42,086 nucleotides of DNA from Dehalococcoidia bacterium (GTDB lineage Bacteria; Chloroflexota; Dehalococcoidia; Bin125), in NCBI GenBank assembly GCA_022824765.1, contig JAJDZG010000006.1, forward strand, positions 1 to 42,086, read 5' to 3'. Of the stretch, positions 36,919 through 41,327 are shown in pieces; within the stretch, counting starts at the first letter, position 1; each line of letters opens with the position of its first letter. The notes under the pieces are model-generated. The model searched no databases and was not told where the DNA came from. It was given only the letters and a program-made list of their open reading frames with translations. A program made the position numbers and the translations under genes.

Positions 36919-37318
36919 CGCCAGGCCGCCGGGCGGCCGCGGCGCGACGGCTTCGGTCGCTGCGTCGAGGAAAGTCCGGGCTCCGCGGGACAGGGCGCTG
37001 GGTAACTCCCAGGCAGGGCGACCTGACGGAAAGCGCACAGAAACACACCGCCAACCCGATGCCGCGCCTCGCGTTTGCGAAGTGCGGCGGCGTCGGCGGC
37101 AAGGGTGAGATGGTGCGGTAAGAGCGCACCAGCGGTCGGGTGACCGGCCGGCTGAGCAAGCCCCGCCCGGAGCAAGACCAAATAGGGAGGCGTCGGCTCG
37201 TCCCGGGCCGCCTCCGGGTAGGTCGCTCGAGGCGGCGGGTAACCGTCGTCCCAGATGGATGGCCGCCGCCCGATGCGCAACCATCGGGTACAGAACCCGG
37301 CTTACAGGCGGCCTGGCG
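36919..37318 (+). ncRNA. rnpB: RNase P RNA
   Basis: The catalytic RNA that removes 5' leaders from pre-tRNA. The ends pair perfectly for 12 bp to form helix P1: CGCCAGGCCGCC (36919-36930) with GGCGGCCTGGCG (37307-37318). The conserved core is present: GAGGAAAGTCCGGGCTCC at 36967-36984, GGTAAGAGCGCACCAG near 37117-37132, AGATGGATGGCCGCC near 37253-37267 and ACAGAACCCGGCTTACA at 37290-37306. TAGAGT at 36908-36913 is well placed as a -10 for a 5' end near 36919, partly in the rnhA-rnpB gap. murE follows 36 bases after the 3' end; no terminator is visible between them. Confidence 0.96.
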
Positions 37319-37354
37319 TCCGCCGCCTGCGAGATCACTGGAAACCGACGTGCC

Positions 37355-38924: not shown

Positions 38925-40268
38925 ATGGACTACATCCAATACCGCGCGCTGGTTGAAGACGACCTACAGCACTGGGTTCACCCGCTCTTCCATCCCGACT
39001 TCCACCAGGAGCCGGTGATGTTCGAGCGCGGCGAGGGCGTGTACATCTACGGTGCCGACGGGCGGCGCTACATCGACGGTTTGGCCGCGCTCTGGAACGT
39101 CGCCGTGGGACACGGTCGCGAGGAGCTGGGCCAGGCCGCGCTCGAGCAGATGTCGAAGCTGGGCTTCTCCAACTCCTACGAGGGCTACACCAACGAGCCG
39201 GCCATTCGTCTGGCCAAGAAGGTGATCGAGCTCGCCTACGACAACATGCAGGCGGTCTACTTCACCAACTCCGGCTCCGAATCGAACGAGACCAACGTCA
39301 AGGCGGCGCGCTTCTACTGGATTCAGAAGGGTCGGCCCGAGAAGCAGAAGATCATCACCCGCGTCGAGGCCTATCACGGCAACACCGTCGCGATGACCGC
39401 CGCTACGGGCATGCAGGTCTTCAAGCCGCAGTTCGGCCGTCCCGTGCCGGACATCATCAACGCCACGACGCCCGACGCCACACCGACCGGCGGCGGGCGG
39501 ATCGACAGCGGCAACCTGATGATCGACAACATCGTGGCGACGATTGAACAGGAAGGTCCTGATTCGGTCGCTGCGGTGATCGCCGAGCCCGTGCAGGGCG
39601 CCGGCGGGGTCTATCCGCCGCCCGACGACTACTTCCCGCGCTTGCGCGAGGTCTGCGACCGCTACGAGGTGCTGCTGATCGCGGACGAAGTGATCACCGG
39701 CTTCGGACGCACGGGCAAGTGGTTCGCACTCGAGCACTTCGACGTCCAGCCTGACATGATGTCGATCGCCAAGGCGATCACGTCGGGCTACATCCCGATG
39801 GGCGCCGCGATCTGGTCCAAGGACGTGCACGACACGATCACCGAGGGTCCCGGCAAGTTCATGCACGCCTACACCAACTCCGGACACGCGGCCGGCGCCG
39901 CCGTCGGATTGCGGAACCTGCAGATCTTTGAGGACGAGGGACTGGTCGAGAATGCCGCCGCACGCGGCGATCAACTGCTGTCGGGTTTGCAGCGGCTGAC
40001 CGAGAATCCGCACATCGGCAACGTGCGCGGTCTGGGCTTCATGTGCGGCTTCGACATCCTCAAGGATCCCGAGACTGACGAGGCGTTCCCGGCGTCGGAC
40101 GGGATGGGCGCGAAGCTGCTCAAGGCCTGCCAGAGCCGCGGGCTGATCAGCCGAGTCCGCAACGATGGCTATCTGCTCGCCCCACCGCTCGTGGCGACGA
40201 AGGAGCAGGTCGACGAGATTCTGACTATCGTCGAGGACTCCGTCCGCGAGGTCACCTCGGCGCTGTAG
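38925..40268 (+). CDS. Class III (omega) aminotransferase
   Basis: A 447-residue PLP-dependent aminotransferase of the class III family (aspartate aminotransferase family in many annotations), with YIYGADGRRYIDGLAALWNV, the cofactor block TNSGSESNETNVKAARFYW, AYHGNTVAMTAATG, Asp in LLIADEVITGFGRTG, and the Schiff-base Lys in SIAKAITSGYIPMGA. Substrate is not fixed by sequence; omega-amino acids or amines with pyruvate are typical. ATG 38907 also opens the frame, but GGAG at 38914-38917 lies 7 bases before ATG 38925, so I chose the latter. No biosynthetic partner genes adjoin it. Confidence 0.92.
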   Translation: MDYIQYRALVEDDLQHWVHPLFHPDFHQEPVMFERGEGVYIYGADGRRYIDGLAALWNVAVGHGREELGQAALEQMSKLGFSNSYEGYTNEPAIRLAKKVIELAYDNMQAVYFTNSGSESNETNVKAARFYWIQKGRPEKQKIITRVEAYHGNTVAMTAATGMQVFKPQFGRPVPDIINATTPDATPTGGGRIDSGNLMIDNIVATIEQEGPDSVAAVIAEPVQGAGGVYPPPDDYFPRLREVCDRYEVLLIADEVITGFGRTGKWFALEHFDVQPDMMSIAKAITSGYIPMGAAIWSKDVHDTITEGPGKFMHAYTNSGHAAGAAVGLRNLQIFEDEGLVENAAARGDQLLSGLQRLTENPHIGNVRGLGFMCGFDILKDPETDEAFPASDGMGAKLLKACQSRGLISRVRNDGYLLAPPLVATKEQVDEILTIVEDSVREVTSAL

Positions 40269-40276
40269 GCCCTGAC

Positions 40277-40306
40277 TTGCCAAGTCGTCGCCTTCTCGCC
40301 TATCAT
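40277..40306 (+). promoter_or_regulatory. Near-consensus promoter of the small transcription unit
   Basis: TTGCCA (-35, 40277-40282; 5 of 6), an 18-base spacer, TATCAT (-10, 40301-40306; 5 of 6). Among the strongest sigma70-type matches I see in the window. Predicted transcription start near 40313. Confidence 0.7.
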
Positions 40307-40333
40307 GCGGGGCAGGAAAGGAGGTGATGCAAC

Positions 40334-40399
40334 TTGGGACATAGCCAACTCTCGCCCAGGTACCGACGACGCAGCGCAGTGGAGGTGGGCGCCTCCTAG
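40334..40399 (+). CDS. 21-residue peptide with maximal ribosome binding site
   Basis: A TTG-initiated ORF of 21 codons plus TAG. GGAGG ends 9 bases before the TTG and sits inside a 13-base full complement to the 16S 3' end, far stronger than any other site in the window. The peptide is small and basic with four Arg in five codons (RYRRR, residues 9-13, codons AGG-TAC-CGA-CGA-CGC). The stop codon lies at the base of a hairpin. It could be a functional microprotein or a leader peptide whose Arg cluster slows ribosomes. An ATG at 40327 overlapping the ribosome binding site would give only five codons and is not favoured. Confidence 0.5.
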   Translation: MGHSQLSPRYRRRSAVEVGAS

Positions 40400-40442
40400 C
40401 CGCTGAGACCAAACGTCGCCCGGACACCTGGGCGAACATGCG

Positions 40443-40480
40443 CGACCCCGAGCCGCCCAGCTCGGGGTCGTTTCGTTTCT
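40443..40480 (+). terminator. Rho-independent terminator
   Basis: GACCCCGAGC (40444-40453), loop CGCCCA, GCTCGGGGTC (40460-40469) form a perfect 10-bp stem, 11 bp with the flanking C-G pair, followed by GTTTCGTTTCT. It closes the small transcription unit upstream of birA. Confidence 0.85.
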
Positions 40481-40505
40481 CCGCCCACTCGCAGCGCGGG
40501 ATGGC

Positions 40506-40511
40506 TACTCT
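40506..40511 (+). promoter_or_regulatory. -10 element of birA, leaderless type
   Basis: TACTCT lies 6 bases before the birA ATG. Since a strong terminator lies just upstream and no ribosome binding site is visible, birA is probably transcribed separately from the small unit. Confidence 0.5.
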
Positions 40512-40517
40512 TCAAGC

Positions 40518-41327
40518 ATGTCTGAAGCCTCGCTGCTGCCGCCCGAACGCCGACTCGACCTTGAGCGGGTCCGAGCTCTGCTGACGACGGAGAGCGTCGC
40601 TCGCGAGCTGCATTACCTGGTGCAGACGACATCCACGATGGACGATGCGCGTCGCCTGGCGGAAGCGGGCGCGCCGCACGGCGCTGTCGTCGTGGCGGAC
40701 GAGCAGACCGCTGGACGAGGCACCAAGGGGCGCGTCTGGGTGTCGCCGGCTGGTCAGAGCATCCACACGACGCTGATCGTGCGTCCCACGACGGAGGCGC
40801 TGAAGCGGCTCAGCATTGTGTCGCCGGTGGCCGCAACGGACGCTGTTCGGGTCGCGGCCTCGCTCGAGCCGTCGATCAAGTGGCCCAACGACATTCAGAT
40901 CGAGCAACGCAAGCTCGGCGGCATCCTGATTGAGGCGGAGTGGCGGGACGGTCAGCCGGCGTACGCTCTGGTTGGGATCGGGATCAACGTCAACTTCGAC
41001 CCGGCGCCGTGGGCGTCGGTGATCGATCGGCCGGCGACCAGTCTGATGATTGAACTCGGCCGGGAGTCGCCGCGCGAGCCGCTGCTGGCGGCTCTGTACA
41101 ACGCGTTTGAGCGACGGCTGGCTCAGGCGGGTGAGGCCGTGCTGCATGACACGTGGCAGGCGCGACTCGACACGTTGGGCAAGGACGTCACCGTCACGTT
41201 TGCAGGCGGCGAGGCGGTGCATGGTCGCGCAACGGGAGTCGATCGGGACGGCGCGCTGATCGTCCGACGCGACGACGGCGCTGAACAGGCATTCATCGCT
41301 GGTGAAGTGACGCTCCGACTCGCTTGA
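40518..41327 (+). CDS. birA: Biotin--[acetyl-CoA-carboxylase] ligase
   Basis: Attaches biotin to the carrier domain of acetyl-CoA carboxylase, thus supporting fatty acid synthesis (fabD and acpP are in this window). The 269-residue protein has TTSTMDDARRLAEAG, the adenylate-binding loop QTAGRGTKGRVWVS, IKWPNDIQI, RKLGGILIE and GIGINVNF, and a small C-terminal SH3-like domain (DVTVTFAGGEAVHGRATGVD). It lacks the N-terminal winged helix of E. coli BirA, so it is a monofunctional ligase and not a repressor. Confidence 0.95.
   Translation: MSEASLLPPERRLDLERVRALLTTESVARELHYLVQTTSTMDDARRLAEAGAPHGAVVVADEQTAGRGTKGRVWVSPAGQSIHTTLIVRPTTEALKRLSIVSPVAATDAVRVAASLEPSIKWPNDIQIEQRKLGGILIEAEWRDGQPAYALVGIGINVNFDPAPWASVIDRPATSLMIELGRESPREPLLAALYNAFERRLAQAGEAVLHDTWQARLDTLGKDVTVTFAGGEAVHGRATGVDRDGALIVRRDDGAEQAFIAGEVTLRLA

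Follow-up and report, generated by a model that had tools for sequence, protein, structure and literature searches.

The DNA analysed here, a window of 42,086 nucleotides from a Dehalococcoidia bacterium (GCA_022824765.1, contig JAJDZG010000006.1), contains a member of what is apparently a new and undescribed family of structured short-ORF RNAs in Chloroflexota. Comparison between homologues shows conserved parts, two covarying pairings, neither of them coupled to the terminator, and copies that have no downstream gene; and the reading to which we give slightly better than even chances is that of a small autonomous mRNA, some 160 nt long and ended by its own terminator, the translation of which would be switched by its own fold. 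It is from sequences and predicted folds that we infer that the element is transcribed and translated, that the switch acts in the cell, and what the element does. That a conserved, covarying gene of this size has apparently been overlooked in a major phylum is probably due to an ORF so short that it escapes annotation. The gene would provide a compact natural test of how ribosome supply interacts with co-transcriptional folding and with extended SD pairing.

In the window, a promoter, a 13-nt SD, a 21-codon ORF, hairpins, and a terminator all fit within 40277–40471 (Table 1), which confirms the compact unit proposed in the first-pass annotation, including its 13-base stretch complementary to 16S rRNA and its TTG-started ORF. 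The promoter has 10/12 consensus matches (mean of the shuffles, 0.0), it is the only site, on the + strand only, in a scan of both strands of 40000–40700 (the one search in which an antisense RNA was looked for), and SD1 would lie a few nt 3′ of the transcription start presumed from the −10. The RNA 40310–40482 folds better than 200/200 shuffles (z −3.05). The same annotation had called the unit an orphan, a label that fits only in part, since birA begins on the same strand 118 nt 3′ of the short-ORF stop codon; given the TACTCT 6 nt 5′ of its ATG, this birA may have its own leaderless promoter. Elsewhere in the window, at 36921–37320, Rfam 15 identifies a class A bacterial RNase P RNA (261 bits).

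Table 1. Parts of the element and the neighbouring gene, in window positions
Feature	Position	Strand	Description
Promoter	40277–40306	+	−35 TTGCCA 40277–40282, 18-nt spacer, −10 TATCAT 40301–40306
SD1, GAAAGGAGGTGAT	40316–40328	+	Exact complement of the 16S 3′ tail
Short ORF	40334–40399	+	TTG start, 21 codons 40334–40396, TAG 40397–40399, MGHSQLSPRYRRRSAVEVGAS
P1 5′ strand, UCGCCCAGGU	40352–40361	+	Within the ORF; CCCAGG can alternatively pair with the start-codon region
In-frame GAGGTG (Glu-Val codons)	40382–40387	+	Internal SD-like sequence
Anti-SD-like segment, GCGCCTCCT	40389–40397	+	Able to cover SD1; p 0.01 vs codon shuffles
P1 3′ strand, ACCUGGGCGA	40426–40435	+	Between stop codon and terminator
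Intrinsic terminator	40442–40471	+	12-bp stem
birA, biotin protein ligase	40518–41327	+	Neighbour, outside the unit as counted; PF03099 and PF02237

A search of its own assembly for a 16S match gave none, and the 16S tail was taken from relatives. Eight of the ten sites fetched were 16S 3′ ends (the other two, in G007 and G035, were not); they come from seven same-genus genomes and from one further member of the family, and read ...GGCTGGATCACCTCCTTTCTAGG / GGATCACCTCCTTTCTAGG. Because the 3′ end of the relatives reads ...GGCTGGATCACCTCCTTTCTAGG, the 13 nt of SD1 are the exact complement of AUCACCUCCUUUC. The exact 13-mer occurs once in its own assembly, the observation that bears on whether this is, as in the rpsU type, the one exceptionally strong SD of its genome. 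The next-longest exact match to the complement of the tail within the window has 9 nt (28471, minus strand), and the claim that no other ribosome binding site in the window comes near this strength is thus borne out, by exact-match length only (13 vs 9 nt).

Homologues were found in 13/14 same-genus genomes, 12 of them at 86–97% identity and one (G012) at 75%, and a fragmented genome of the genus (G003) gave a short match only. Matches of a pattern search occurred in 34/197 class genomes, and 30 of the 33 named records matched belong to Chloroflexota, many labelled Dehalococcoidia. They include Tepidiforma flava, a relative with a named strain and a complete genome. The other three (Moranbacteria, bacterium MS4, Fournierella) were dropped as chance. 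A sequence-only model (R1, promoter to codon 6, 27 sequences) matched 197/393 class genomes at E ≤ 0.05, where the listed matches reach down to chance level and those above about 1e-3 were treated as unreliable, and 37/301 genomes of the phylum at E ≤ 1e-3; strong R1 matches in the class are usually one per genome. With a wider model (R2, 66 sequences, likewise restricted to promoter to codon 6), 130/400 Chloroflexota genomes matched at E ≤ 5e-4, 11 of the 130 being from the same class. In a control phylum 4/199 genomes matched, one of the four having been chosen for its match. When the birA upstream regions of 19 genomes without a strong R1 match were read, together with a twentieth (G094) as positive control, the element appeared among the 19 in G020 only.

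The class collection comprises 114 loci (a few genomes are perhaps represented twice) in 17 families of Dehalococcoidia and 59 clusters, the single f53 locus clustering with another family; the clusters, cut at 85% ORF identity, are still kin by descent. In other classes, 33/34 loci read combine the SD with a short ORF whose start codon stands at the usual distance; the exception, L324, is an ordinary gene and was dropped as a false positive by inspection, as were L055, L228, and L230. The 30-locus set from these classes does not include L268–L270, which nearly duplicate L267 and L266. One same-genus genome holds a second, decayed copy (G001:C12:5720-6261), composed of the element and a birA fragment with stop codons. 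Eight pattern matches in viral contigs, with no birA in the fetched DNA, were judged unrelated by inspection; in one of these contigs (L129, about 871) a similar SD precedes a short ORF, hydrophobic-looking by eye, that may be a type I toxin-like gene. The conservation in related genomes on which the first-pass annotation had made its unit depend was therefore found, with SD block, ORF, and hairpins recurring across the phylum and a terminator in most loci, the constancy of the SD being partly by construction since homologues were recruited by the SD block.

What recurs beyond the model region is the short ORF, the long helix P1, and usually an intrinsic terminator. A promoter (at least 4 matches in the −35 and at least 3 in the −10) precedes 67/89 homologues vs 4% of shuffled upstream regions, and in 82/83 homologues with a scored −10 this ends 12–16 nt 5′ of GGAGG, so that the SD should sit at the extreme 5′ end of the RNA. 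Counted from the first G of GGAGG, the start codon comes 13–16 nt later in the class and 13–15 nt later in other classes. ORFs of 13–28 codons are found in 89/89 homologues, a count that is not unbiased, as the choice of start codon favoured ORFs of 12–35 codons (class) or 10–35 (others). A lenient scan without shuffle control gave a terminator in 104/114 class loci and 26/30 other-class loci (in L049 it chose a site 130 nt downstream). Some other classes have a shrunken form: L317 consists of SD-GGTGATGCCC-ATG, a 14-codon ORF that contains GGGCATCAC, and, past the stop, a second GGTGATGCCC, which is, as judged from its sequence, the putative three-strand toggle in its barest form.

The ORF takes part in two alternative pairings: P1, in which the early ORF (codons 4–15) is paired with post-stop RNA, and a second, weaker helix, in which the ORF interior lies over the SD and start codon. 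Because homologues differ in length, these were assessed by cross-matching the duplex energy of the segments of each locus against segments of other families, row- and column-centred; the class P1 test, the accessibility calculations, and the tests on 79 elements include only elements that have a detected terminator and a post-stop segment of sufficient length. Across the phylum (36 families) the own P1 has −11.64 kcal/mol (null 0.40 ± 0.41) and is in the best 10% in 73/79 elements, and in the class it has −10.69 (null 0.71 ± 0.52; best 10% in 48/53). For the SD block and start with the ORF interior the phylum value is −2.56 (null 0.11 ± 0.25; best 10% in only 26/79), and for the spacer and start with the ORF interior the class value is −1.92 (null 0.21 ± 0.22; best 10% in 23/59). 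Each helix is negative, that is, covarying between families, in 33/36 families. Compared with codon-shuffled ORFs, the pairing of SD and ORF interior reaches p < 0.05 in only 38/59, and only 38/79 elements have, downstream, an exact complement of at least 6 nt to their own SD core.

Inside family f33 the SD helix is 98.1% paired; both sides have changed in 3 cells, and 0/500 shuffles attain its covariation score. The P1 pairs fit inside f59 (96.4%) and f33 (87.3%), against 19–43% for slid versions, with no excess of covariation over column shuffles in these two alignments; covariation of P1 within families was accordingly rejected, and it is from the between-family comparison that support for P1 covariation comes. 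RNAalifold recovered only part of the SD helix on f33 and missed P1, and on f59 it preferred the helix that hides the SD (20 pairs) to P1. In alignment A3, L262 had been entered on the wrong strand, and this alignment was set aside. Pairing of the SD block with the post-stop segment was at null level in the 79 elements and was discarded. In the same elements no antiterminator signal emerged, either for the post-stop segment with the terminator (+0.87, null −0.02 ± 0.40) or for the ORF interior with the terminator (−0.29, null 0.01 ± 0.39), and therefore the switch looks translational.

The order in which these segments are transcribed suggests how such a switch could work. The SD would emerge first, and a 30S subunit could bind at once; as the ORF is transcribed, its interior could pair with the SD and start codon, closing them; the post-stop segment would then take the early ORF into P1, favouring re-exposure of the SD, and the terminator would end the RNA. 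Predicted accessibility of GGAGG, as the mean of 79 elements, is 0.59 when the transcript reaches codon 5, 0.31 when it reaches the stop, 0.42 ahead of the terminator (P1), and 0.36 at full length (window element: 0.55, 0.00, 0.43, and 0.44). Between the stop and the pre-terminator stage it rises in 36/79 and falls in 17, and of 60 elements closed at the stop 23 pass 0.5 again. With the post-stop segment shuffled, pre-terminator accessibility is 0.26 instead of 0.42, 43 elements lying above their control by 0.1 and 16 below. The modelled folds thus support closing and partial reopening of the SD during transcription as a trend, not as a rule.

If the RNA is translated, its peptide of 13–28 residues might itself be the product, as in the abundant microprotein of the first-pass annotation. 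ORF start, frame, and stop are indeed kept; the first GAGGT is, with two exceptions, in frame in the cluster representatives having one (39/41; 18/59 have none), its eight distances from the start all being multiples of three; and an N-terminal MDDxS and a C-terminal EV recur in the class. However, class ORFs have no clear third-codon-position excess (substitutions at positions 1/2/3 are 400/337/422 in codons 2–6 and 309/369/175 in the last five codons) and their peptides no codon-level conservation, and other-class peptides have little in common by eye. A microprotein gene is for these reasons quite improbable; frame and stop would seem to matter, and the peptide not, or it would be bound by RNA constraints. 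The arginine-stalled leader that had also been suggested is unsupported and was rejected, as the RYRRR cluster, present in the window and the same genus, was not seen outside the genus. Nor does an untranslated sponge, binding 30S through its SD or the ribosome-binding sites of mRNAs through an anti-SD-like segment, account for the kept frame and the start codon at fixed spacing, which it would not need. The full 16S complement in the SD would suit it, as would the post-stop CATCACCTCCTTTC of L273 (other class), a near-copy of the 16S 3′ tail, but this mimic is complementary to the SD of its own RNA over about 16 nt, and we hold the sponge to be very unlikely.

The neighbouring genes raise another alternative, a cis-acting leader in which translation of the short ORF would control terminator read-through into birA, smpB, or greA, as in ribosome-mediated attenuation. 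In 102/114 class loci (15/17 families) birA lies at most 700 nt downstream on the same strand, in the attenuator layout of a short ORF and terminator before a gene, while the gene upstream varies among the loci read; so tight a linkage suggests a cis role that an autonomous RNA leaves unexplained. In the 30 other-class loci, birA follows in 8 (four by tblastn, four by eye), smpB in 6 (by eye, two checked by Pfam), and greA in 1, in all 15/30, and 21/29 listed f33 loci have no −10 near the birA start, the script having found no start codon in some. On the other hand, the antiterminator that competes with the terminator in ribosome-mediated attenuators was not found in the 79 elements, and birA is missing downstream in f17 (0/8; one of the contigs runs only 425 nt past the stop) and f4 (0/2); the copies inspected face convergent genes. 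Such standalone copies, in which the attenuator layout is absent, occur in f17 (5 loci read), f4, L172, and other classes. Moreover, TANNNT stands 6–7 nt 5′ of the birA start in 17/18 f1 loci (no control run), suggesting that f1 birA could be leaderless, and the peptides have, by eye, no run of one regulatory codon common to lineages. We regard the leader as rather unlikely and, given the copies without birA and the missing antiterminator, reject a birA attenuator as the sole function; the unit is read instead as an independent gene with favoured places, with cis effects by read-through being possible. Upstream of birA in f34 and f60 genomes without the element (L247–L249, L259, L260), a murE-like gene (by eye) reaches birA; in L017 and L262 the element lies between the two. 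In L327 and L330 the element, smpB, and the tmRNA gene succeed one another on the same strand, a possible link to ribosome rescue.

For the autonomous small mRNA, the most likely role would be that of an RNA that reports or buffers initiation capacity (free 30S), because conservation falls on the act of ribosome loading rather than on the peptide; if there is a gene downstream, read-through may hand a signal of this capacity on to it. Titration or sensing of free 30S subunits, which the first-pass annotation had listed, is a possible role, and the covarying helix over SD and start codon speaks in its favour. More tentatively, these could be phylum-wide stand-alone sensor RNAs carrying both SD:anti-SD halves, which would read the speed of 30S arrival during transcription, the peptide being incidental, ribosome occupancy being the signal, and the whole being possibly tied to ribosome rescue (before smpB, tmRNA) and to fatty-acid capacity (before birA).

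Searches of known families agree with the earlier statement that no named family is matched. Rfam 15, run on the window and 20 element loci, gave none at gathering score for the element (best weak match 16.5 bits vs 46 required), for which reason its identity with another named RNA was rejected; the only matches were the RNase P of the window itself and, in DNA flanking the other loci, rRNA and tmRNA. For peptides near the 20-residue limit of the tools, NCBIfam gave 0 families (12 distinct peptides) and Pfam 0 (7 peptides), and in the literature, mostly outside subscription journals, no description of the element was found.

Three known systems come closest to the element. In the AapA3/hok type I toxin mRNAs, anti-SD segments, of which one lies within the ORF, hide the SD through successive co-transcriptional folds (PMC6733600). 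The element likewise has a short ORF, an SD hidden in its own mRNA by a cis anti-SD, here by prediction and comparison only, including one inside the ORF, and successive folds; however, its peptides are hydrophilic by inspection, not small hydrophobic membrane toxins, and weakly conserved, and it is found in many families of one phylum, usually with one strong match per genome. We would therefore say that it resembles these SD-hiding mRNAs in logic, without filing it as a member. With the extended SD of rpsU in Bacteroidota, which is read differently by ribosomes without bS21 (PMC9976891), it shares exceptional strength, but the rpsU SD precedes the bS21 gene and that of the element a short ORF with a putative folding switch; no bS21 gene was met downstream in the loci read, which have birA, smpB, greA, other genes, or no gene on that strand. 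The usage of extended SDs in S. aureus (PMC13009471) is a looser parallel. Finally, the uORF candidate uORFC-6-1 before hflX is a short ORF in a predicted RNA structure, thought to influence transcription of a ribosome-rescue gene (PMC8632094); the element, too, is a short ORF within a predicted structure and in some lineages precedes smpB, but its terminator is not coupled to the switch, and it has copies without any downstream gene.
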